NCBI RefSeq assembly: GCF_018617485.1
Contig: NZ_JACSKH010000001.1
Span: 1,736,001-1,800,000, forward strand
Direction of reading: 5' to 3'
Source of the DNA: Exiguobacterium sp. s124
Lineage (GTDB): Bacteria > Bacillota > Bacilli > Exiguobacteriales > Exiguobacteriaceae
DNA length: 64,000 nt
The notes beneath the pieces are model-generated. The model ran no database searches. It had not been told where the DNA came from and saw nothing but the letters and a program-made list of their open reading frames with translations. Positions 50,164-63,662 of this stretch are shown here, one piece after another. Within the stretch, counting starts at the first letter, position 1; each line of letters begins with the position of its first letter. A program made the translations under genes and the position numbers.

Positions 50164-50278
50164 ACGGAAAAATCATGTTTGAAAACGTTCATTCGATTAC
50201 AGGTTATTTACAATAACCGCATCTCAGTCCTGTCTCACCGTCTACTAGTTTGCCTTCTTTTGAGGAAAAAGGCAAATC

Positions 50279-50307
50279 AAAAAAAGCAGACGCGAGTAGG
50301 CGTCTGC
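50279..50307 (-). terminator. Terminator after the membrane protein gene at 50.3 kb
   Basis: GCAGACGC and GCGTCTGC (50286-50307) are followed on the minus strand by seven T. Confidence 0.82.
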
Positions 50308-50321
50308 CTAAGAGAGAACGG

Positions 50322-50762
50322 TTACAAACCTGGTTGGAGCGGGAGGAGTAACATCGCGCCGTAGAAGAAGACAGAGAAGATCAGCACCGGTCGAAAGAAG
50401 CGGGACGGTTTCACACGCGTCGCTCCGGCTAAAAAGCTTGTCGTCGTCATCACGAATATATAGATTCCAACATACATGAGAAGTAAGCGGACGAGCACCG
50501 TCCAGATTCCGAGTTGATCGAGTTCATTGAAAGAGACTACCACCAGACCAAGATAGCCGATGAGTGATAGAACACCTACTCCGACACCGACGATTGGTGA
50601 GACACGGTCGAGCCAGTGGTCCTCGTCGAACCGAAGGAATAGTGCCGTACTCACGAATAAAAACAGGACGAACAGGACGAGCGAGAAGATGGTCGCGTCT
50701 AGTTGGACGTAGCTCACGAGGAGCGATACGCCAAGCATGAACAACCAGATGATTTTTTCCAT
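50322..50762 (-). CDS. Multi-pass membrane protein, unknown
   Basis: I do not recognise the family. The 146-residue protein has about five hydrophobic segments, with a polar loop around FDEDHWLDRVSP between the second and third and a short basic stretch (TRVKPSRFFRP) before the last. ATG 50762 has GAGGTG six bases upstream; a longer frame to 50798 has no ribosome site. Base composition still matches the backbone, and the stop is followed by a terminator, so it appears to be a complete gene, lying just outside the AT-rich stretch. Confidence 0.65.
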   Translation of the reverse strand: MEKIIWLFMLGVSLLVSYVQLDATIFSLVLFVLFLFVSTALFLRFDEDHWLDRVSPIVGVGVGVLSLIGYLGLVVVSFNELDQLGIWTVLVRLLLMYVGIYIFVMTTTSFLAGATRVKPSRFFRPVLIFSVFFYGAMLLLPLQPGL

Positions 50763-50836
50763 GTTGAACACCTCACCTGATATTTTATCAAAGTCCACGA
50801 ATCAATTGGAGGAAATTGTATATTCTTTCTCCCTCG

Positions 50837-51451
50837 TCACAGTTTCTTCAATAAATGAAGGATAGATTGTTGCAAGGAGATGTGGAGATTGTCTTCGTTT
50901 AATCGGATGTACAGACTTTTCAAAAATGTTTTCACGTTATGAACGACATACCAATACGATTCCTCATCAAGATGTTGTTTACGCTCCTCCAGAAGATGTG
51001 GGAACCGCTCTACATGATGAAGGAGGATTTCAGAATCCAACCCCCGTTCGAGTAAACGTAGGACTGGATTGATAAGACGTTCGTCTTCATCATGCGCCAA
51101 TATGTCGGAACGCATGATTTGTTCGATGATGATATTGAAAAGTTCAGGAAATGACTTCGGATTGAGTTTGGGATTTGCGATGAGCTCGTCTACCGCATCT
51201 GCAGCATGGGCAATCGAGTGGGCCCATCCCTTCCCATTTACGTATCCTCTTGTGTCTTTCTCTAATGTTAAATATTGAATAAGAGCAGTCGTTGTCCGCT
51301 TAAACTGCTCCTCTGCCAAAAAGTCCTCTTCTATATCCCGATGGAGGATCAATGCTATCATTAAAGTCGTGAACGCTCTCGTGAAAACCGCATCCGACTC
51401 TCTTTCCTCAATAATTATTACAATGCTCTCTGTGATATCTTCCTTACTCAC
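50837..51451 (-). pseudogene. DUF2785 family gene, apparently truncated at the 5' end
   Basis: The translated 204 residues match the C-terminal part of DUF2785 proteins (SDAVFTRAFTTLMIALILHRD, YVNGKGWAHSIAHAADAVDE, the second motif is the family hallmark). Full family members are about 270 residues, so about 70 N-terminal residues appear absent. The only start, GTG 51451, lacks a ribosome site, and the DNA beyond it turns abruptly AT-rich. I infer truncation by an insertion or deletion at about 51455; it could still be expressed. Family function is unknown. Confidence 0.5.
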
Positions 51452-51498
51452 AATTTAAGGTTAGAATTTATTATCTTCACCCTAACTATATAAACAAT

Positions 51499-51963
51499 TT
51501 AAGAATAGAAACCGATTTTTTTTAAATGTTCATCTCTTACTCGGATTAATTCAAAAAGAAACTTTCTATCTTCATCCAAGAATTTTTCATCGTTTGAATA
51601 TGAACTTTCTTCACCTGTCAACAAAAGTTTCACTTCAAATTCTCTACGTATTTCGTCTTGATACCTCCATAAGATATTATAAAGATTTGAATCTACAAGA
51701 TGGCGATTTCTTGAAAAAATTAAATCAATTTTCTTTACGTCATTCATGGAAAGACCTTCATAATAACCATTTTGAATAATGTATTTTTCGATGTCTACAA
51801 GTATAGGACTATATATTTCTTCTACTGCCTTTTCAGATAATTTCAAAGAAAAATCAACTCTTTTATTTTTCTCATAGTAACGTGCGGCTAAAATTGCCGC
51901 CAAAGCAACTGTAAAAATCGGCGATACCATTTTGCCTATCTCAATCCAAGTCTGAGTCGTCAT
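51499..51963 (-). CDS. Orphan protein with one N-terminal membrane helix
   Basis: I recognise no family. The 154-residue protein has an N-terminal hydrophobic helix (MVSPIFTVALAAILAARYY), then a charged, helical cytoplasmic region rich in Lys and Glu (SLKLSEKAVEEIYSPILVDI), ending EHLKKIGFYS. GGTGAT lies six bases before ATG 51963. Codon use and base composition are clearly more AT-rich than the neighbours, so horizontal transfer is likely. It is divergent from the gene at 52149. A membrane-tethered effector or defence component is possible, but only as speculation from the setting. Confidence 0.55.
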   Translation of the reverse strand: MTTQTWIEIGKMVSPIFTVALAAILAARYYEKNKRVDFSLKLSEKAVEEIYSPILVDIEKYIIQNGYYEGLSMNDVKKIDLIFSRNRHLVDSNLYNILWRYQDEIRREFEVKLLLTGEESSYSNDEKFLDEDRKFLFELIRVRDEHLKKIGFYS

Positions 51964-52148
51964 TAAATCACCACTTTTTTAATAATAATTACGCAATAAA
52001 GTTCAATGAACCTAATTACCGCTATCTATCATTATAAATATATCACTCAATTAACCATTTTCGCTTCTGTCTTTCACGTGATTATCTTCTACTATTTTCC
52101 TAATTAAAAACTTATACTAACATCATGAAATATTAAAGGAGTCTACAT
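51964..52148. other. AT-rich divergent intergenic region of the orphan pair
   Basis: About 185 bases with multiple A/T-rich -10-like elements (e.g. TATACT at about 52110). No clear -35, repeat or binding palindrome stands out; promoters for both genes must lie here. Confidence 0.4.
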
Positions 52149-52907
52149 ATGAAACGTGAGCATATAAATTACCCAATGATTCTCAAGTCCGCAAAAGACA
52201 TGGATTTCAAAAAGATTATTGCTGATACGCTAGATTTTGGCATTTCTTCAAATTTGAGTTTTCCTTTACCTGCACGCGCGATTTTAGACCACTGTGAAAC
52301 ATTTCTGCAAAGTCTTCGCGTAAACTATCTAGATGTTTTGATGGCAAAAGTATATATCGATTGCGAGCGTGATCAAGACTATTTAAAAGAATTATTTTCA
52401 CAACTGACAAAAAATGAAGCACTCATTGCTTATATCGGTAGAGCTTCAGAAGTCTCTAAACAAACTCATAGCAATCAAGCAACTATACTTTTAGGAATAT
52501 ATTCAGGACAAATAGTTGTAAAGCCCGAACTGTTAGAGAATCATATTTCTATAGTAATGTTAGAAATTCTATCAAGTTTGAATGATACTGATATTAATCA
52601 TTTTTGCTTATTATACGATTTCTTAATTTGTAATCCAGAGTCGGATATCGTTTCACACCAAGCCTATTATGGTTTCAATGAAATGAAACACGGATCATTC
52701 CTCAAAGAACAAATACAAGTTGACCCTAATTTAGTTTCATATTTTACAAGCGCTAATAAATTTATAAACTTGGGATTAATATCAAAAGGTGCTAGTACTT
52801 GGGGTGCTATTGATAATTTTATAGTTACAACCAATATTTATAGCACTTCTCTTAAAGATTTGATTCTAGAATACGAAGAACTTTCAAAGTATAAGATATC
52901 ACCATAA
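52149..52907 (+). CDS. Orphan protein of 252 residues, unknown
   Basis: I recognise no domain. The protein looks mainly alpha-helical and soluble (LKELFSQLTKNEALIAYIGR, ISIVMLEILSSLNDTDINHF, FLICNPESDIVSHQ), with no signal peptide or membrane segment. An ideal AAAGGAG lies eight bases before ATG 52149, arguing for a living gene. Composition is AT-rich. It is divergent from the membrane-anchored orphan, and no transposase, integrase or repeat flanks the pair. Helical bundles of this size occur in some abortive-infection proteins, but no motif here supports that. Confidence 0.6.
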   Translation: MKREHINYPMILKSAKDMDFKKIIADTLDFGISSNLSFPLPARAILDHCETFLQSLRVNYLDVLMAKVYIDCERDQDYLKELFSQLTKNEALIAYIGRASEVSKQTHSNQATILLGIYSGQIVVKPELLENHISIVMLEILSSLNDTDINHFCLLYDFLICNPESDIVSHQAYYGFNEMKHGSFLKEQIQVDPNLVSYFTSANKFINLGLISKGASTWGAIDNFIVTTNIYSTSLKDLILEYEELSKYKISP

Positions 52908-53005
52908 TTTGAAAACTTCTGCAATCAGTATACAAAGTCCATACAGAACATTATAGTTCGTGGAATTCTCCTTCTATATTTGCAATCCCAAATTCTCAAT
53001 CACTC

Positions 53006-53134
53006 TTAAGACAAGTAATTGCGAATTTCATTCACACAATCAGCTCTATTTTTAAGATCATTTAGTTCACGCCTTGCACCCACAATCAAATGAAAAGCAG
53101 GCACCCTAATGCCTGCTTCCCACTCCTCACCCAT
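53006..53134 (-). other. 42-codon open frame overlapping radC end and its terminator; rest of gap empty
   Basis: A frame starting ATG 53134, inside the last codons of radC, encodes MGEEWEAGIRVPAFHLIVGA then RRELNDLKNRADCVNEIRNY plus LS and stops at 53006. The second half has protein-like composition and AT-rich codons. The radC terminator lies inside the frame, so translation is doubtful; it may be the tail of a gene lost when the island formed. Between 52908 and 53005 I see nothing else. Confidence 0.25.
53095..53118 (-). terminator. Terminator after radC
   Basis: AAGCAGGCA and TGCCTGCTT pair around a 6-base loop; four T follow on the minus strand. Confidence 0.75.
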
Positions 53135-54505: not shown

Positions 54506-55213
54506 TCATGGTGTCGTGTAATCATAGACCGGGATATCCTTTTGCTCGAACGCCGGTTCTGGGATGTAGCGATCTGGAACAAGCTGATCGAGGTCCGGGC
54601 GATAGAAAGCATCCAGTTCGACCGTAAAATCAAGCGCCTGTACTTCTTCGACCGTATTCGGTCCCGTCTCGGCAGGTCCTGTGAACTGGACCGTCCGCAA
54701 AACATGGATGCGGTTCATCGACTCGATTGATTCTAAGAACGAGACGAGGGCATCGTATGTCTCGGCCTGAAGGGTCACGGTTGAACGAACGGTCGAAGCA
54801 TTGACCGGTGCAACGTCTGTCGGTTCAGCCGGTTCGTTCGTCTCACTGACGTCAGCCGGATTGAACGGTTCGACCGTCTCGGGTACTTCCGACTCAGCCA
54901 CCAAACCGTCCGCGAAGGCGATGCTTGTCACATCAACACCAGCGAGCAGGCTCGCCTGAGACAACGCCTCGACGACCGTGTCGAGTGCAGGGGCTGTCGG
55001 AACGCGTGTCTGGAGCGTTTGTGAGTCCGCCACATCAACGGCTTTGCCTTCCTGACGCAACAGTTCAAGTTTCGTCCGTTCAAGCGAGAGGTCGCGTTCA
55101 AGCGCCTCGACTTCACCTTGTTTGATGAAATACGTATATCCGAAGTAAGCCGGTGCTACGATGGCTATGAGGAGGCAAATCGCAAATAACGCATAAATTG
55201 TCGAACGTTTCAT
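54506..55213 (-). CDS. pilO: PilO-like type IV pilus assembly protein
   Basis: Inner-membrane alignment component. The 235-residue protein has a short cytoplasmic start, one membrane helix (IYALFAICLLIAIVAPAYFGY), a coiled-coil (VEALERDLSLERTKLELLRQ), an acidic Pro/Glu-rich linker (about residues 112-140) and a C-terminal ferredoxin-like domain (ALVSFLESIESMNRIHVLRT). The ATG overlaps the upstream pilM-pilN stop by four bases (ATGA). Sequence identity in this family is low; the call rests on layout and position after PilM/PilN. Confidence 0.75.
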   Translation of the reverse strand: MKRSTIYALFAICLLIAIVAPAYFGYTYFIKQGEVEALERDLSLERTKLELLRQEGKAVDVADSQTLQTRVPTAPALDTVVEALSQASLLAGVDVTSIAFADGLVAESEVPETVEPFNPADVSETNEPAEPTDVAPVNASTVRSTVTLQAETYDALVSFLESIESMNRIHVLRTVQFTGPAETGPNTVEEVQALDFTVELDAFYRPDLDQLVPDRYIPEPAFEQKDIPVYDYTTP

Positions 55214-56775
55214 TGACTCACCACCTCCGCATCTGCTTCCTCTTCTTCAGTCAATTCTTCCTCCACGTCTTGGAACATGAACGTGAACTCTCCGATATAA
55301 CGTGGAAGGGGATCTTCTTCGAATGAATTCTCCTCTTCCTCTTCTGCCGCCTTCAATTCGGTCGTCACGCCGAGGAGCTTCACGTCAAGGAAACGTTCAT
55401 CGGTCATGAGCGAACGTTGGAAGGCGTTCAGATCCTCAAGCGTCTCAAACTGAGTCCGCACGCTCATAATCGAGCCGTCCGCGTAGTTATACGTCAAGAC
55501 GTATCCCGTCGGAGGCAATTGTTCCGTCAACGCCCGTAGTGCCGGTACCGCATCTTTCTCCATATCCGTCAACGCCGTCACGGTCTGGTCGAGGGCGAGC
55601 ACTTGTTGCGCCTTCGAGTTCACCTGTTCCGTTTGATAAATCTCCACGAGCTGAAGTTCTTCTTCGATACGTGCCTGATCCGCTTCCAATTGACCGACCT
55701 CATAGTACAGGTAACCGGCAGCGCCTCCACCGAGGAGTAATGCAACGAGCCCGGTCACGATCGGCCAGCGGAGCGTCACATCGGTCGAGTTGATGAAGTT
55801 CGTATTCTGATCACGTTGCAGAGTCGCCATCCCGAGTAGTGGGAGCATCTGATGCGAGAGCGGCGTCCCGTGCGCAATCGCGAGCGGTTGTTCGACCCGT
55901 GTCACGGGAACAAGAGATTCAGTTTGAATCATGCGGACCAAGTCGTCCACTTCAGGTACCGTACCCGAGACGTACAGGTGGTCAATGGCACGACCATCCG
56001 TCCGTAGCGAATAACGATAGAAGTCGAGGAAACGGGCGAGTTCGTTCAACCAGTCGTCCATCTGGTTCGCTTTCATCTCATCCGTCCCATTGTATGTATA
56101 CGTCACAACGCCATCTTTCGTCCCGACTTGGTACGGGAGGTCCGACTCGATGGAACGAATGAAGCGAATCTGCCCCTCTTCAAGTACAAGCAATTGATGC
56201 GAGAACGGGGTCACATGCCAAATCAACGTCGACTGAAGCGAATCGATCTCCGATAAACGCATGACACCATTCGCGACCGCGACGGAACGTGGCGTGATCT
56301 TCTTCAAGGCGAGACCACGTTTTTTCATATAAGACCGAAGCGACTTCGTCAGCTCGATCGATACGGCATGAAGCATGACGTCCGTTTTGACACCATCTTC
56401 GCCTAACACTTCATAATCGAACGACACGTCATCGAACGGTAAAATGATGGAACTGCCGATTTCCATGAACAAGTAGCCACGGATTTCGTCTTTCGGAATC
56501 GTAGAAGGAATCTCGACTTTCCGAGATAACACTTCGGTCTCATCCAATGCGACCGCACACGTCATGCCACGTCGGACTTTCAACTTGCGACAAAGTTCGT
56601 CGAAAGCGAGGCTGAACGCGGTCTCGTCGAGGATTTTTCCTTCTCCGTACGCATCTTTCGCCAATTGAACCGAGGCGCTTCGCTTGAACACTCCTTGCTT
56701 GATGACGGCACCGTGGATGCTGAGTGCATCAAACGAAAAATAGGTGACCGTCCCTTTCTCTATCCCACGACTCAT
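55210..56775 (-). CDS. pilM: PilM-PilN fusion protein of type IV pilus assembly
   Basis: The 521-residue protein looks like two pilus proteins in one. Residues 1-320 resemble PilM, the cytoplasmic actin-like platform (SIHGAVIKQGVF, MTCAVALDETEVLSRKVEIP, FMEIGSSIILPFDDVSFDYE). Residues about 325-521 resemble PilN: an NFIN start, one membrane helix (337-358, WPIVTGLVALLLGGGAAGYL), a coiled coil and a ferredoxin-like domain, with an acidic tail. In most bacteria PilN's N-terminal peptide docks on PilM, so fusion would fix that contact. The frame is continuous with no sign of a sequencing error. Coupled to pilO. Confidence 0.75.
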   Translation of the reverse strand: MSRGIEKGTVTYFSFDALSIHGAVIKQGVFKRSASVQLAKDAYGEGKILDETAFSLAFDELCRKLKVRRGMTCAVALDETEVLSRKVEIPSTIPKDEIRGYLFMEIGSSIILPFDDVSFDYEVLGEDGVKTDVMLHAVSIELTKSLRSYMKKRGLALKKITPRSVAVANGVMRLSEIDSLQSTLIWHVTPFSHQLLVLEEGQIRFIRSIESDLPYQVGTKDGVVTYTYNGTDEMKANQMDDWLNELARFLDFYRYSLRTDGRAIDHLYVSGTVPEVDDLVRMIQTESLVPVTRVEQPLAIAHGTPLSHQMLPLLGMATLQRDQNTNFINSTDVTLRWPIVTGLVALLLGGGAAGYLYYEVGQLEADQARIEEELQLVEIYQTEQVNSKAQQVLALDQTVTALTDMEKDAVPALRALTEQLPPTGYVLTYNYADGSIMSVRTQFETLEDLNAFQRSLMTDERFLDVKLLGVTTELKAAEEEEENSFEEDPLPRYIGEFTFMFQDVEEELTEEEEADAEVVSQ

Positions 56776-56788
56776 GATCGTTTTCCCC

Positions 56789-57541
56789 CTACATCAACTC
56801 AAAATACCAATCAAAAAAGCTTTCACTAAACCAAAACGTCAACATCGTCCCGAGCGCGATTGATGGCACGAACGGAATCGGTTGTTTACGTCCAATTTTT
56901 TTCGAAGCGATCAAGCCCATCCCGACCACGGCTCCAATCAAGCTCGACAAGAACAATGCGACGAGCACATCCCGTGGACCGAGCACGAGACCGATCATAG
57001 TAAACAATTTGACGTCCCCTGCCCCAAGTCCCCCTTTTGACACGAAAAAGACAGTCGCTAAAAGAGAAAATCCGAGAAGCGCCCCAGCAAGCGGTGACCA
57101 CCACGTGGCCCCTGCCACATAGGTAAGGACGAGTAATACCGGTGCCGTGATCCGCAAGATGACGTTCGGCACAAGCATCGTCGATAGATCAGATACTGCG
57201 AGCGCCAATAGCGTCGATAAGAAGGCGAACGCAAGGAGCGTCGTCATGCTAAATCCGTAGAGCGTATAGCTATAGCCATATCCAATGGCTCCGAGCAATT
57301 CAAAGATTGGATACGTCGGCGCGATCCGCTCGCCACACCCACGGCATCTCCCACGAAGGGCGAGATAGCCGAAAATCGGGATGAGTTCCCACGGTGACAA
57401 TTCATGACCGCAAGACGGACAATGTGACCGTGGCGTCACGATTGATTGTTTGCGTGGCACGCGGAGCCCGACGACGTTGGTGAACGACGTGATGACCGCC
57501 CCGAGGATGATGCTATATAAGAATCCAATCAATTCGATCAA
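56789..57541 (-). CDS. pilD: Prepilin peptidase (PilD/ComC)
   Basis: Aspartic membrane protease that cleaves and N-methylates prepilins. The 250-residue protein has the zinc cysteine pairs CPSCGHELSPWELIP (near residue 41) and CRGCGERI (near 66), and catalytic aspartates in AVSDLSTMLVPN and GGLGAGDVKLF (GxGD). The start is TTG 57541, supported by AAAGGAGG eight bases upstream. It sits where comC is in B. subtilis (upstream of maf), so it probably also processes competence pseudopilins. Confidence 0.93.
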   Translation of the reverse strand: MIELIGFLYSIILGAVITSFTNVVGLRVPRKQSIVTPRSHCPSCGHELSPWELIPIFGYLALRGRCRGCGERIAPTYPIFELLGAIGYGYSYTLYGFSMTTLLAFAFLSTLLALAVSDLSTMLVPNVILRITAPVLLVLTYVAGATWWSPLAGALLGFSLLATVFFVSKGGLGAGDVKLFTMIGLVLGPRDVLVALFLSSLIGAVVGMGLIASKKIGRKQPIPFVPSIALGTMLTFWFSESFFDWYFELM

Positions 57542-57627: not shown

Positions 57628-58101
57628 TTACGGTGTTGATAAAGAAGATTTACTTAGAGAACCTTCTTCTACACCATTAATATTAAATTTTGAGCCTTTA
57701 AGAGTAACAGTGTAAGTATACTTACCTCCAGACTCAGCAATTGCTACTGAACCAGCTTTATAAGATGCATCATTAAAAGGATCTTCTAATTTAGAAATAT
57801 ACTTATATCCCTCTTCTTCAGTTGAGTCATCAGAAGCCGTTGCTCCTGCTTTAAGGAATACCAAATCATGATCTCCTGGATTTGAAGCACTGTAGAGTTT
57901 TGCGGCCGAAATCATTTGTCTAGCATCGGCAACCATTGCATCCTTCTTCGAGTTCTCAATAATCCCACCAATCGCAACAACCGCAATCGCTGCGATAATC
58001 CCTAAAATAACGACGACGACGAGCAACTCGACGAGTGTGAGTCCACGCTCATCTTTTAATTGTTTGGCATCTTGCCAAATCATTTTCAACTTCTCTACCA
58101 T
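57628..58101 (-). CDS. pilA: Major type IV prepilin
   Basis: The 157-residue prepilin has a 20-residue basic leader ending in ERG, then LTLVELLVVVVILGIIAAIA, the N-methylated helix with the essential Glu5. A disordered-looking C-terminal globular domain lacks cysteines and is notably more AT-rich than the neighbouring genes. It has its own promoter and a terminator after it, and a GGGGAG ribosome site. Likely the main pilus subunit. Confidence 0.88.
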   Translation of the reverse strand: MVEKLKMIWQDAKQLKDERGLTLVELLVVVVILGIIAAIAVVAIGGIIENSKKDAMVADARQMISAAKLYSASNPGDHDLVFLKAGATASDDSTEEEGYKYISKLEDPFNDASYKAGSVAIAESGGKYTYTVTLKGSKFNINGVEEGSLSKSSLSTP

Positions 58102-58243: not shown

Positions 58244-59461
58244 TTATTGATTTTGAATATCGCCATAGATTTGGAACATCGGGACCACGATGGAGATGAC
58301 AATCACCCCGACGACACTCGCGAGAACAACGATGAGAAGCGGTTCGATGATGGACTTCAGTCGGTCCGTTGTCGTCTCAACTTCGGTCTCATAAAACTCG
58401 GCGACTTCGTTCAACATCGAGTCCAAATCTCCACTTTCTTCCCCGACCGCAATCATCTGTGTCATGAGCGGAGGAAAGTTCGAGTTACGCATGAGCGGCT
58501 CGTGGAGCGGAATCCCTTGTGCCATCATTTCCCGTGCCTCCGTCAATCCTTTGCGGATCACGCGGTTCGACACGATGCGTTCCGTAATCTCAATGGCTGT
58601 TAAAATAGGGACTGCCGCCTGTAACAGAACGGCTAAGCTTCGTGTGAGCAACGCGATTTGAGACTTCGTCACAATCGGTCCGAAAATCGGCATCTTGAGC
58701 AATAATCGGTCAATGACATATCGTTCCCGGTCCCGTTTCAGCATCCATGTGAACACAAATACCCCAAGCATCGCGATAGCGAGTAAGAGCCACCAGAATG
58801 CTGCGATAAAGTCCGAAACGGCGACGACGATTCTCGTGATGAGCGGAAGCTCACCGCCAAGTTGCCCGAAGATGCTCGCAAACGTCGGGACGACGTTCAC
58901 CATCAAGAACGCGACCACGCCGATGGCGACGATTGAGACGACCAACGGATACGTGAGCGCGGAGATGACTTTCCGCTTCACATCATACTGCTTCTGGAGT
59001 TGCAGCCCGATTTGGTCGAGTGCCTCCTCCAAGTTCCCGCTCGTCTCCCCGGCGAGAGCCATCGAACTAAAGAAGTTCGAAAAGACGCGCGGATGTTTCT
59101 TGATCGCCTCGGAGTAGGCAATCCCTTCTTTCAAATCGTCTTCAACCTGACTGAGCGTCTTCTTCAATACTTTCGACTCGGTCTGGACTCTCAGAATCGA
59201 AGTCGCACGTACAATGGGTACCCCTGCACGGATCAGCGTCGCAAACTGTCTGACGTACATGATCAGATGTTCAATCTTGACGCGTTCTGGCAGGATGTTG
59301 ACCTCTTTGTTCAGTCCGGTCGACTCGAGCTCGGACAAATCCGTCACGAGAATCGATTCTTGTCGTAATTTATCTTTCGCCTCCCGAAGCGAGACGGCCG
59401 TGATGCGACCTTTCTTACGCTTCCCGTTCAGGAGCTTTCCTTCATACTGAAATATCGCCAT
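58244..59461 (-). CDS. pilC: Type IV pilus inner-membrane platform protein PilC
   Basis: Platform protein of the GspF family. The 405-residue protein has two GspF repeats (FATLIRAGVPIVRATSIL and LAVLLQAAVPILTAIEITE), each with the GLP-like helical unit, and three membrane segments (near 175-205, 215-245 and 375-400). ATG 59461 is chosen, with GAGGTGA about six bases upstream overlapping the pilT stop. Confidence 0.93.
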   Translation of the reverse strand: MAIFQYEGKLLNGKRKKGRITAVSLREAKDKLRQESILVTDLSELESTGLNKEVNILPERVKIEHLIMYVRQFATLIRAGVPIVRATSILRVQTESKVLKKTLSQVEDDLKEGIAYSEAIKKHPRVFSNFFSSMALAGETSGNLEEALDQIGLQLQKQYDVKRKVISALTYPLVVSIVAIGVVAFLMVNVVPTFASIFGQLGGELPLITRIVVAVSDFIAAFWWLLLAIAMLGVFVFTWMLKRDRERYVIDRLLLKMPIFGPIVTKSQIALLTRSLAVLLQAAVPILTAIEITERIVSNRVIRKGLTEAREMMAQGIPLHEPLMRNSNFPPLMTQMIAVGEESGDLDSMLNEVAEFYETEVETTTDRLKSIIEPLLIVVLASVVGVIVISIVVPMFQIYGDIQNQ

Positions 59462-59467
59462 CACTCA

Positions 59468-60505
59468 TCACCTCATCTCTTCTGTCGGAACGGCGTTCGG
59501 ATTGATGATTCCTTGCCTTACGAGTTGTTCAATTGCGGCATCCATCGACTGCATGCCGTGCTGGCGACTCGTCTGGATGACGGTCGGAAGCTGGAACTCT
59601 TTTTCATTTCGAATCAAGTTGGCGACAGCCGGGTTCCCTAACATGATTTCCATCGCAGCGACACGGCCTTTCGGGACATCGATCCGTGGGAACAACCGTT
59701 GACTGACGACCCCGAGTAAGACGTTTGCGAGTTGCGTCCGGATTTGATCTTGTTGCTCGGCCGGGAACGCATCGATGATTCGGCTCACCGTCGACATTGC
59801 ACTCGACGTATGAAGAGTCGCCATGACGAGATGCCCTGTCTCGGCTGCTGTCATCGCCGTCGAAATCGTCTCTAAGTCGCGCATTTCCCCTAGCAAAATG
59901 ACGTCCGGGTCTTGGCGAAGTGCTGCGCGGAGACCGCTCACGAACTTCATGACGTCCGAACCGATCTCCCGTTGGTCGACGATGCTTTGGTCGTGTGAAT
60001 GCAAATACTCGATTGGATCTTCTAATGTGATGATTCGCTTCCGTTGCGTCCGGTTGATTTCATGGATCATGGCCGCAAGCGTCGTCGATTTCCCTGAACC
60101 GGTCGGCCCCGTCACGAGGATGAGACCGTGCGGTTTTTCAATCAATCGCTTCAACACCGTCGGCAAATTAAGTTCATTCAATGTCGGGATTTCCCCGGAA
60201 ATGGAACGGAATGCGATCGCAATCGTCCCCCGTTGATAGTAGGCGTTGACACGGAAGCGTGAGACACGCGGCACCCCGAACGAAAAGTCGAGATCACGTT
60301 CATGCTCGAGGCGTTCACGCATATCCTCCGTCATAATTTCTTTTAAAAACCCTTCAAGATGATGGGGCAGCACTTTCTCCTCGCCCATCGTGATAAGACT
60401 TCCGTCCACTCGAATGATTGGTGGCGAACCCGCCGTCAAATGAATATCTGAGGCTCGTCGCTCGACCGCATTCGTCAAGATGACTTCAATCGATTGATTA
60501 ATCAT
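59468..60505 (-). CDS. pilT: Pilus retraction ATPase PilT
   Basis: Hexameric ATPase for pilus depolymerisation. The 345-residue protein starts with the PilT N-domain (NAVERRASDIHLTAGSPPI) and has Walker A GPTGSGKSTT (near residue 135), the Asp box MRDLETISTAMTAAETGHLV and the His box ATLHTSSA. The C-terminal AIRNLIRE-type motif is altered to VANLIRNEKEFQLPTVIQT, which is a family variant. ATG 60505 is favoured over GTG 60511. Its start overlaps pilB. Confidence 0.95.
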   Translation of the reverse strand: MINQSIEVILTNAVERRASDIHLTAGSPPIIRVDGSLITMGEEKVLPHHLEGFLKEIMTEDMRERLEHERDLDFSFGVPRVSRFRVNAYYQRGTIAIAFRSISGEIPTLNELNLPTVLKRLIEKPHGLILVTGPTGSGKSTTLAAMIHEINRTQRKRIITLEDPIEYLHSHDQSIVDQREIGSDVMKFVSGLRAALRQDPDVILLGEMRDLETISTAMTAAETGHLVMATLHTSSAMSTVSRIIDAFPAEQQDQIRTQLANVLLGVVSQRLFPRIDVPKGRVAAMEIMLGNPAVANLIRNEKEFQLPTVIQTSRQHGMQSMDAAIEQLVRQGIINPNAVPTEEMR

Positions 60506-62168
60506 ATGCACTCTCCGTAATGACCGTTCGTAATATTTCTTCAGTTGTCGTCAAACCGGCGGCGACTTTCTCTAACCCGTCAGCCAGTAAGAACGTCGCT
60601 CCTTGCGACTTCGCATACTCCACCATCTCCGACTCGGTCGCCTGGTTCATGATCATTCGGCGTAACCCTTCGTTGATCGGAATCACTTCATGAATGGCAA
60701 GACGCCCTCGGTAGCCTGTCGAGTTACAAGATGAACACCCTTTACCGCGTACAACCTGATCGATATGAACGCCTTCTGCCTCGAATAGGCGTTGTTCACT
60801 TTTTGAGACCGGTTCTGCCTGACCACAGTCGCGACAGACACGTCGTACAAGACGCTGTGCGACGAGTCCGGTCGTCGAAGCGGCAACAAGGAACGGTTCG
60901 ACCCCCATATCGACGAGACGGGTGATGGAACTGATGGCCGAGTTTGTATGTAATGTCGATAGGACAAGGTGTCCCGTAAGTGAGGCGCGAATGGCAATCT
61001 CGGCTGTTTCGGTATCACGAATCTCCCCGACCATGACGATGTTCGGGTCTTGTCGCAAAATCGAGCGGAGACCGGACGCGAACGTCAATCCGACTTTCGA
61101 ATTGACCTGGACTTGGTTGATACCATCGAGCTGATACTCGACCGGGTCTTCTACCGTGATGATATTTTTCGTCTCATCGTTCAATTCTTTGAGTGACGCA
61201 TATAATGTCGATGACTTCCCAGAACCGGTCGGGCCGGTGATAAGGATGATGCCGTTCGGACGTTTCAGCATCTCACGGTATGCTCGCTCGTTCTGCTCCC
61301 CGAACCCGAGTTTCGTCAAGTCCGTCAGACCTTGCGACGAGTCGAGCACTCGAATAACAATCTTCTCCCCATACATCGTCGGGAGCGTCGACACACGGAA
61401 GTCATACGCACGATTTCGCAACGTATACTTGATCCGTCCGTCTTGTGGTAGACGACTTTCGGTGATGTCGAGGTTACTCATCACTTTGAGGCGTGTCAGC
61501 ATCACGCTCTGAATCTTCTTCGGATAGATTGTTTCCGTACGTAAATCCCCGTCAATCCGAAAACGGACGTGAAGTTGTTTCTCATGCGGGTCGAAGTGGA
61601 TGTCCGATGCGCGTTGGTCGATCGCGCTTAAAAAGATTTGGTTCACGAGACGGATGATTGGCGCATCGTCTCGACTGATTGTTTCTTGCTGATCGATTTC
61701 CGGTGCATCTTCTTTTAAAATCTCGACGAGCGAGTGATCCATCTCATAGTAACGACTGATCGTCTTTCGAATTTGTTCACGCGTCGAAATCCCAATCTCA
61801 ATGTTCATCCCGGTCTGCAATCGGACATCATCGATCGCAATCAAGTCGAGCGGGTCGGCCGTCGCAACGTGAAGCGTATTCCCAATCAGTTTATATGGCA
61901 TAACGTCGTGTTTTTGCGCTAACGCTTTTGGTACGAGTTTCGTCACCGTCACGTTAATATCTTGCGAATACAGTTCGATAATCGGAACGTGTAACTGTTC
62001 ATGAATCATTTGAATCAATTGCGTCTCGGTAATATGGTTCAATCGGATAAGTGTATCCCCTAACTTTTCACCGATGCGCTTTTGTTCGAGTGCCTCATCA
62101 AGCTGGCTCTCCGTAATCAGCCTTGCCTCGATTAGCATCTCGCCGAGTCTTCGTTTCGTTCGTCTCAC
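60498..62168 (-). CDS. pilB: Pilus assembly ATPase PilB
   Basis: Extension ATPase of the GspE family. The 556-residue protein has an N-terminal MshEN-type domain (RLGEMLIEARLITESQLDEA), Walker A GPTGSGKSST (312-319), Asp box GEIRDTETAEIA and the zinc-binding tetracysteine (Cys445, Cys448, Cys478, Cys481 in CRDCG and CSSCNSTG). Full-length. The start is GTG 62168, with GGTGA six bases upstream, one base after the stop of the preceding gene. The MshEN motif in relatives binds cyclic di-GMP, a possible control here. Confidence 0.95.
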   Translation of the reverse strand: MRRTKRRLGEMLIEARLITESQLDEALEQKRIGEKLGDTLIRLNHITETQLIQMIHEQLHVPIIELYSQDINVTVTKLVPKALAQKHDVMPYKLIGNTLHVATADPLDLIAIDDVRLQTGMNIEIGISTREQIRKTISRYYEMDHSLVEILKEDAPEIDQQETISRDDAPIIRLVNQIFLSAIDQRASDIHFDPHEKQLHVRFRIDGDLRTETIYPKKIQSVMLTRLKVMSNLDITESRLPQDGRIKYTLRNRAYDFRVSTLPTMYGEKIVIRVLDSSQGLTDLTKLGFGEQNERAYREMLKRPNGIILITGPTGSGKSSTLYASLKELNDETKNIITVEDPVEYQLDGINQVQVNSKVGLTFASGLRSILRQDPNIVMVGEIRDTETAEIAIRASLTGHLVLSTLHTNSAISSITRLVDMGVEPFLVAASTTGLVAQRLVRRVCRDCGQAEPVSKSEQRLFEAEGVHIDQVVRGKGCSSCNSTGYRGRLAIHEVIPINEGLRRMIMNQATESEMVEYAKSQGATFLLADGLEKVAAGLTTTEEILRTVITESAYD

Positions 62169-62169
62169 G

Positions 62170-62454
62170 TTACTTCACCATCCTTTGAGGAGCCTCCTCT
62201 TGCTCGACTTCCCTCTCTTCGACGAAAGTACTAGCCGTCACTCCACCAATCAATATGACAACAAGTATGAGCCACGTCCACCATGCCTCGGTCAAATTCT
62301 CCGTGATCATAAAGTAAATCCCAGCAGATAGAAGAGCCGTCCATAAACTGATAAGTAATTTCGTTTCACGCTTTTTCATCGATGGGACGGACAAGGCGAA
62401 CAGCGTAAGCGTCGCCAATACCCAAAAGCCGAGTAAAATCATATAACCGATCAT
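62170..62454 (-). CDS. Small three-helix membrane protein in the pilus operon
   Basis: A 94-residue protein with hydrophobic segments at about 3-22, 34-50 and 58-75, and a charged C-terminal tail (EEREVEQEEAPQRMVK). I recognise no family. It overlaps the upstream VanW-like gene by four bases (ATGA) and ends one base before the pilB start, so it is coupled to the pilus machinery; its role there is unknown. Confidence 0.65.
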   Translation of the reverse strand: MIGYMILLGFWVLATLTLFALSVPSMKKRETKLLISLWTALLSAGIYFMITENLTEAWWTWLILVVILIGGVTASTFVEEREVEQEEAPQRMVK

Positions 62455-63662
62455 CCGACCGCCTCCTGATCTGCAGGATATTCTTCAAAAACGGGTGGTT
62501 CTTCGAAGTTGTCATCTAATTCATCGTCAAAAATCGGGTCTTCTTCCACCTCTTCATCCGGGAAAGTTGGAATGACCGGTTCGACCGGTTCAGGTGGCGG
62601 AAGCGGTACCGAACTCTTCGTTACGATTTCCGGTGTCGGTGCATAAAAATCAAAGCCGAGCAACTCCATCGTTTCTCCTTCTTCCGTCACTTTGACGCGG
62701 TAAAGTTTGCCTGACTGACCAGTTTGTCCGGACTGCGTGACAGATGAACTGCCTGAAGGAAGGGATGAAGAAAAACGGACGACTTTTTGATAAGGAACCG
62801 ACGTCACCTCTTCCACTCGTGCCTCGTAAGCCGAATCAAACGGTTGACCGAGTAATTGGACGGTCACTGCATCTCCTTCATTCAAGACGAGAATGGCGTA
62901 TGACGACTCCTCACGATTTTGCACCGCAAAGTTTGATCGGGCATCCACTTTCGTGTCGTATCCGAGTTCCATCCCAGAAGGAAGCGTCTCGTGTGGTACA
63001 CGTTCGAGAATGGCGAACGGCGTGGCAGCAAACATGCGATAGAACGAAGAACCGAGCGTCGTGAGTGCCTCAAAGTCTTCGCCGAATGATTTGAGGCTGA
63101 AGATATCCCCTGCTGCCATCTCGAATCCGTTCATTCGGTCGAGTGTCGACTGCATCGCCGGAGTCGGACTCACGGTAAATGAGGCTACGACTTCACTTTC
63201 CGCCGCGACTTGTTCTAAAGTGACCGTCGACTCGAGCATCGATGCCGCATCCATCAGTGCCGGTGCAATCATCGTCATCGTCACGGGTTGACCATCAAGA
63301 TATGGCTCGACTTTTGTTTCATCGATTGCAGCCAACAATGGATAATCTCCCGCCTCGGTGATGGAATCGAGCGTATTCGGCACATCGAATGTCACGACCT
63401 CTTTTCCAATCTCGATGATGGTTCCGTCCATCAAATTGACCGAAAACGGTAGCGTATTAAAATCTTTAATTGCGTTATCGAGGCGGACGTCAGCTTCTTC
63501 CTTCGTCATCTCGGAAACGTCTACACCGGCGACCGTTGTTTCTGTATATGTAGCGCTTGACTCGGCGGACGCATCTAAGTAATTGACGAGTCCGATTGTC
63601 GGCAATGTCACGAGTGCGACGAGTCCAATCAAAATGAAAAGATGCATCCCATACCGCTTCAT
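62451..63662 (-). CDS. VanW-like protein leading the pilus operon
   Basis: The 403-residue protein has an N-terminal membrane helix (LFILIGLVALVTLPTIGLVNYL), a putative peptidoglycan-binding YoaR-like region (VAGVDVSEMTKEEADVRLD), a VanW-like domain (about 190-290: SSFYRMFAATPFAILERVPHE, VDARSNFAVQNREESSYAI), and a beta segment with a long acidic Pro/Glu-rich tail. The VanW call is moderate because the conserved residues are partly changed. VanW proteins are cell-wall associated and of unknown chemistry. AGGGGG precedes the ATG at 63662. First gene of the minus-strand pilus operon. Confidence 0.65.
   Translation of the reverse strand: MKRYGMHLFILIGLVALVTLPTIGLVNYLDASAESSATYTETTVAGVDVSEMTKEEADVRLDNAIKDFNTLPFSVNLMDGTIIEIGKEVVTFDVPNTLDSITEAGDYPLLAAIDETKVEPYLDGQPVTMTMIAPALMDAASMLESTVTLEQVAAESEVVASFTVSPTPAMQSTLDRMNGFEMAAGDIFSLKSFGEDFEALTTLGSSFYRMFAATPFAILERVPHETLPSGMELGYDTKVDARSNFAVQNREESSYAILVLNEGDAVTVQLLGQPFDSAYEARVEEVTSVPYQKVVRFSSSLPSGSSSVTQSGQTGQSGKLYRVKVTEEGETMELLGFDFYAPTPEIVTKSSVPLPPPEPVEPVIPTFPDEEVEEDPIFDDELDDNFEEPPVFEEYPADQEAVG

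Follow-up and report, generated by a model that had tools for sequence, protein, structure and literature searches.

Fusion of PilM and PilN into one polypeptide has been described in the type IVa pilus of a monoderm, Clostridioides difficile (Melville and Craig 2013, cited in PMC6916266). PilM and PilN together are also treated as the counterpart of a single protein, GspL (PMC4471445, PMC3815138), whose representatives (PulL, XcpY, EpsL) combine in one chain a cytoplasmic part of actin-like fold, a single membrane helix and, in the periplasm, a ferredoxin-like domain. A PilM/GspL fold is further described for the N-terminal part of BfpC, which belongs to a type IVb system, that of the bundle-forming pili (PMC4471445). 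In Thermus, cryo-tomography combined with AlphaFold3 is described as placing the N-terminus of PilN on PilM, in a six-fold arrangement of PilM, PilN and PilO (PMC13039148). In Bacilli, stand-alone PilM and PilN are encoded by two genes. A published pil locus of Paenibacillus thiaminolyticus gives PilM (387 aa) and PilN (200 aa) as separate proteins (PMC9765702). A literature search, covering for the most part freely accessible papers, returned no survey of fused PilMN across Bacilli.

The locus analysed here encodes a PilM-PilN fusion (hereafter pilMN) and is compared below with each of these systems; for the C. difficile protein, which comes from another lineage, and for BfpC, the likeness is drawn from published descriptions. 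A first, sequence-only reading of this DNA had doubted that such a fusion was the standard form. For the best-studied systems this doubt is justified; the kind itself was nevertheless already in print, through the C. difficile fusion and the GspL counterpart. The pilMN architecture is a known and recurrent kind to which Exiguobacterium adds a case; what the present analysis adds is its fixation across a whole family, made up of Exiguobacterium and a sister genus, another fused family within Bacilli, and the fate of the docking motif.

The window, i.e. the whole stretch of 64,000 nucleotides from Exiguobacterium sp. s124 that was analysed, carries a type IVa pilus operon of a monoderm, with the genes pilB, pilT, pilC, one pilin, pilD, pilMN and pilO following one another on the same strand (-). 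The extension ATPase PilB (60498-62168) was recognised by TIGR02538 (E 2.4e-187; 624 bits, close to but under the cut-off of 675.65) and by its MshEN and T2SSE domains, the retraction ATPase PilT (59468-60511) by TIGR01420 (469 bits, above the cut-off of 319), and the platform protein PilC (58244-59464) by PF00482 (E 1.2e-59). The type IV pilin (57628-58101) matched PF07963 (E 3.2e-7) and exceeded the cut-off of TIGR02532, and the prepilin peptidase PilD (56789-57541) matched PF06750 and PF01478. PilB, PilC, PilD, a pilin and PilT are thus found together with PilMN and PilO, the last of these (54506-55213, 235 aa) being assigned by a weak match (PF04350, E 0.011, under the cut-off), its position and an N-terminal membrane segment that would serve as anchor. 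The stop codon of pilMN and the start codon of pilO share an ATGA at positions 55210-55213, as had been read from the letters alone, and such a stop-start overlap (ATGA or TTGA) was found in 12 of 12 loci checked in relatives. The source organism is closely related to E. aestuarii (98% identity). According to a survey from 2011, E. sibiricum has one pil operon (PMC3244431).

The pilMN gene (55210-56775, strand (-)) is a single open reading frame that begins with ATG and runs through 521 codons without an internal stop. Its domains follow in the order actin-like PilM, short linker, one transmembrane segment, coiled coil and ferredoxin-like PilN. The PilM-like actin-fold domain (residues 1-318, the end being approximate; 55822-56775) was assigned by Pfam PilM_2 (PF11104, residues 31-170, E 4.8e-11, 42.6 bits, above the gathering cut-off of 27), by TIGR01175 pilM (residues 33-298, E 2.9e-14, 52.9 bits, under the curated cut-off of 133) and by comparison of the family profile with solved structures, which gave the Myxococcus PilM chain of 3jc8 at E 5e-12 and weaker matches to the PilM structures 5eox, 5eou and 2ych. 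The TIGR01175 cut-off was reached by none of the 38 pilMN proteins of the Exiguobacterium family, and a stand-alone PilM (locus L129) likewise scored under it, with 100.5 bits. The transmembrane segment was placed at residues 338-356 (55708-55764) from a hydropathy maximum at residues 338-357, and a coiled coil was predicted at residues 357-403 (55567-55707), where a low-confidence full-length model has a helix from 352 to 419. This full-length prediction, built on 6 close sequences (pLDDT 43.8, pTM 0.32), was used neither for the fold nor for docking of the linker. Loss of the nucleotide-binding loops of PilM was considered as a consequence of fusion; in the alignment, stand-alone PilM proteins of Bacilli are also devoid of a glycine-rich first loop, so nothing is claimed on loop loss through fusion.

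Assignment of the C-terminal half was performed by other means than Pfam, since the PilN family (PF05137) did not appear among the matches of the complete protein at E values up to 1, nor among those of residues 325-521 at E values up to 0.1. A profile built from the C-terminal parts of the family's proteins (from residue 324 of the window's protein onward) matched separate ORFs located directly downstream of stand-alone PilM, with a best E value of 2e-25; among 38 loci fetched from other Bacilli, 25 had such a separate PilN ORF adjoining a separate PilM ORF, and the match began in most cases at about residue 4-6 of the stand-alone PilN. When fused and stand-alone sequences were aligned jointly, PF05137 was found in 22 of the 29 members, and the profile of this joint alignment matched the PilN chain of 3jc8 at 2.9e-8. 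The model predicted for residues 386-505 (pLDDT 70.6) has the topology a-b-b-a-b-b, in which a PilN/GspL-periplasmic-like ferredoxin-fold domain was delimited at residues 404-505 (55261-55566, strand (-)). Its best VIA-align matches were the periplasmic domains of the GspL proteins PulL, XcpY and EpsL (Z 8.3-9.7) together with PilO (Z 8.7); Thermus PilN scored Z 5.9. Since unrelated rows reached Z values up to 7.7, only the top group was used. Foldseek, run on the same model, found nothing with an E value of 0.001 or lower, its first row being Thermus PilN (E 0.015). As modelled, the domain has a permuted ferredoxin-like fold, and its structural matches include GspL, PilO and PilN. Profile homology, the joint alignment and the modelled fold show the C-terminal domain to be PilN; the expectation that this half would match PilN or GspL was borne out in these respects, but not by a Pfam PilN match of its own. 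With the PilM matches and the intact frame, this also upholds the proposal that PilM and PilN lie in one polypeptide. A profile search for a second, free PilN in the same genome returned the fused gene at E 9.1e-54; the next matches had E values of 0.03 upward, and the top one among them lies within the pilO frame.

The shared architecture, and a C-terminal domain whose best structural matches are PulL, XcpY and EpsL, would also suit a GspL from a type II-like secretion system or a pseudopilus system. The best family match of pilMN is nevertheless pilM, GspL (TIGR01709) is absent among its NCBIfam matches up to E 1, the gene stands in a pil operon with a PilT that exceeds its cut-off, and in the tree presented below the Exiguobacterium family falls among Bacilli with separate PilM and PilN. 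We consider it improbable that pilMN is a GspL rather than a type IVa PilM-PilN fusion.

Conservation of the fusion was examined across the Exiguobacterium family. The gene was found fused, with an open frame at the junction, in all 38 family genomes: a full-length, stop-free pilMN is present in each of the 19 genomes of the window's genus, its length is 571-590 aa in the 18 sister-genus genomes with an extracted locus, and for the last sister-genus genome (G032) the fusion was confirmed from its own locus. Identity to the window's protein ranges from 35 to 98% across the family and from 35 to 38% in the sister genus, and residues on both sides of the PilM/PilN junction are conserved in the alignment down to the sister genus. 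An annotation or sequencing artefact, or a gene in decay, was considered as an alternative; nothing was found in its favour, while an open frame in 38 of 38 genomes at such identities and the conserved residues flanking the junction speak against it, to the point that it can in practice be set aside. A missed stop codon, named in the sequence-only reading as a result that would overturn it, is excluded by the open junction frame in these 38 genomes. Comparison of the family sequences confirms the fusion as real, old and family-wide.

The distribution of fused and split forms was surveyed at two levels. In the class Bacilli, 398 genomes were searched and 147 gave a match (38 from the Exiguobacterium family and 109 others), and loci were fetched from 38 of these 109. 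Eleven of the fetched loci, all in one family (f4), hold single ORFs of 521-560 aa, and the 25 described above hold separate PilM and PilN. Locus L131 and locus L150 have a PilM ORF, and no PilN was found in them with the C-terminal profile; in L150 the PilM-like ORF (428 aa) has an insertion of about 90 residues halfway through the region matched by PilM. At the level of the phylum, PF05137 matched in 248 of the 398 genomes searched and, among the 150 matches listed, 10 fell in frames of at least 400 aa, of which 8 are also matched by the PilM profile. As PF05137 misses the window's own type, this phylum count of fusions is an undercount. The two other long frames, L158 and L161, belong to one family (f87) and have their PilN match in open frames of 417-419 aa; the corresponding ORFs (413 and 415 aa) are not matched by the PilM profile. 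The survey of fused and split forms that had been suggested for this locus shows that the other Bacilli examined are mostly split, the fused form being found in the Exiguobacterium family, in f4 and in a few other members of the phylum. As far as these profile searches indicate, PilM-PilN fusion is a minority, recurrent form.

The junction was then compared between the two forms. In split Bacilli the two halves of the fused protein have their counterparts in the same order, in adjacent genes. In split loci, PilM mostly ends in GL[AG]LKEV, PilN starts with M-x-x-x-INLLP, and the gap between pilM and pilN is mostly 0 to -11 nt. In the fused proteins of the family, the end of PilM (G-x-A) is followed after 5-7 residues by the motif in 33 of 37 members (4 lie outside the pattern), and in f4 the distance is 7-9 residues (11/11). 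The sequence that in stand-alone PilN forms the N-terminal docking motif is [IV][ND]LL[PE] in split Bacilli (25/25), I[ND]L[LM]P in the f4 fusions (11/11) and INLLP in the linker of the sister genus (18/18). In the window's genus it reads [AT]NFIN (19/19); the remnant in the window, TNFIN (residues 325-329, positions 55789-55803, strand (-)), aligns with INLLP as it stands in the sister-genus linker and at the start of stand-alone PilN, and keeps the Asn and two hydrophobic positions. A literature search on the motif INLLP returned no paper. The sequence-only reading had proposed that the N-terminal peptide which PilN normally inserts into PilM has here become a covalent linker, and the alignment indicates that it was right on the descent of the inter-domain linker from this docking peptide.

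In the window's genus, where [AT]NFIN stands in place of the canonical INLLP, docking of the linker in the PilM groove is at most plausible. This substitution, shared by all 19 genomes of the genus, together with altered motifs in several other fused proteins of the phylum (e.g. INLFR, SNFFK, SDFFT), would also be expected if the chain were fused but its linker no longer docked in PilM in this genus, tethering having replaced docking and the motif having drifted. Against this stand the motif kept in the fusions of the sister genus (18/18) and of f4 (11/11), the positions still retained in the window, and the stand-alone PilN proteins themselves: in a sample of 20 drawn from the phylum search, [ND]L[LI] is retained by 18, and of the other two the first reads LNFFEP and the second is without a clear motif. 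Variants are therefore not exclusive to fusions, and loss of INLLP is not supported as a general mark of fusion. Lost docking in the window's genus is regarded as somewhat unlikely.

The origin of the fusions was addressed with phylogenies. In a tree of the PilM domain (56 rows), the Exiguobacterium family branches from within split Bacilli (99/98 support), in a group that does not include the f4 fusions. In a second tree (44 rows), constraining the 18 fused rows to a single group cost 7.92 log units (AU p 0.035). The tree program warned of long branches, so that two separate fusions are favoured but not settled; on these trees, the f4 fusion probably arose independently of that of the Exiguobacterium family. 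The simplest route would be loss of the pilM stop codon between abutting or overlapping genes, and an ancestor of the Exiguobacterium family probably lost it between adjacent or overlapping pilM and pilN.

The reading we prefer, with a probability of roughly 0.8, is that pilMN encodes the fused PilM and PilN of a type IVa pilus in a monoderm, with PilM and PilN joined by a tethered linker in a 1:1 ratio and working like the PilMNO ring. The cytoplasmic actin-like PilM part would face the PilB and PilT motors and the platform protein PilC; a linker of about 20 residues, formerly the docking peptide of PilN, would lead into the single membrane helix; and the external coiled coil and ferredoxin-like domain would pair with PilO. 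The linker may still occupy the groove of PilM, tethering the two parts of one chain, and the complex would work like the PilM-PilN-PilO ring of other type IVa pili and like GspL-GspM of type II secretion. The pilMN protein resembles GspL in having one chain, and differs from it in lacking a GspL family match and in standing with PilT in a pil operon. Covalent linkage would fix PilM and PilN at 1:1; the overlap with pilO may extend this fixed stoichiometry to PilO.

Whether PilN must leave PilM during motor exchange is a mechanistic question of pilus dynamics. A broader reading, to which we give slightly less than even chances, is that Bacillota acquired the fusion more than once, each time through loss of the stop at this junction and with the docking peptide becoming a same-chain tether; as PilB and PilT are both encoded in the window's operon, release of PilN from PilM would not, on this reading, be required for extension or retraction. 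A natural, family-wide fusion located beside both motor genes offers a ready test of PilN release during motor exchange, and the two sister genera, with and without INLLP, provide a natural comparison of the docking motif. Gene surveys based on Pfam PilN would score genomes of this kind as PilN-less.

Some features of the surroundings of pilMN were also recorded. The first gene at the head of the pil operon (62454-63662) encodes a 403-aa protein that has a G5 domain and matches VanW below threshold; after it (62170-62454) comes one for a 94-aa membrane protein to which no family was assigned. The interval between radC and mreB (50200-53127) looks like a variable spot; in the window it contains a DUF2785 gene together with two ORFs for which neither Pfam nor PADLOC gave a match. 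Across the 19 genomes of the genus, pilMN and the MreB-like match lie between about 2.9 kb (G014) and about 15.1 kb (G009) apart.
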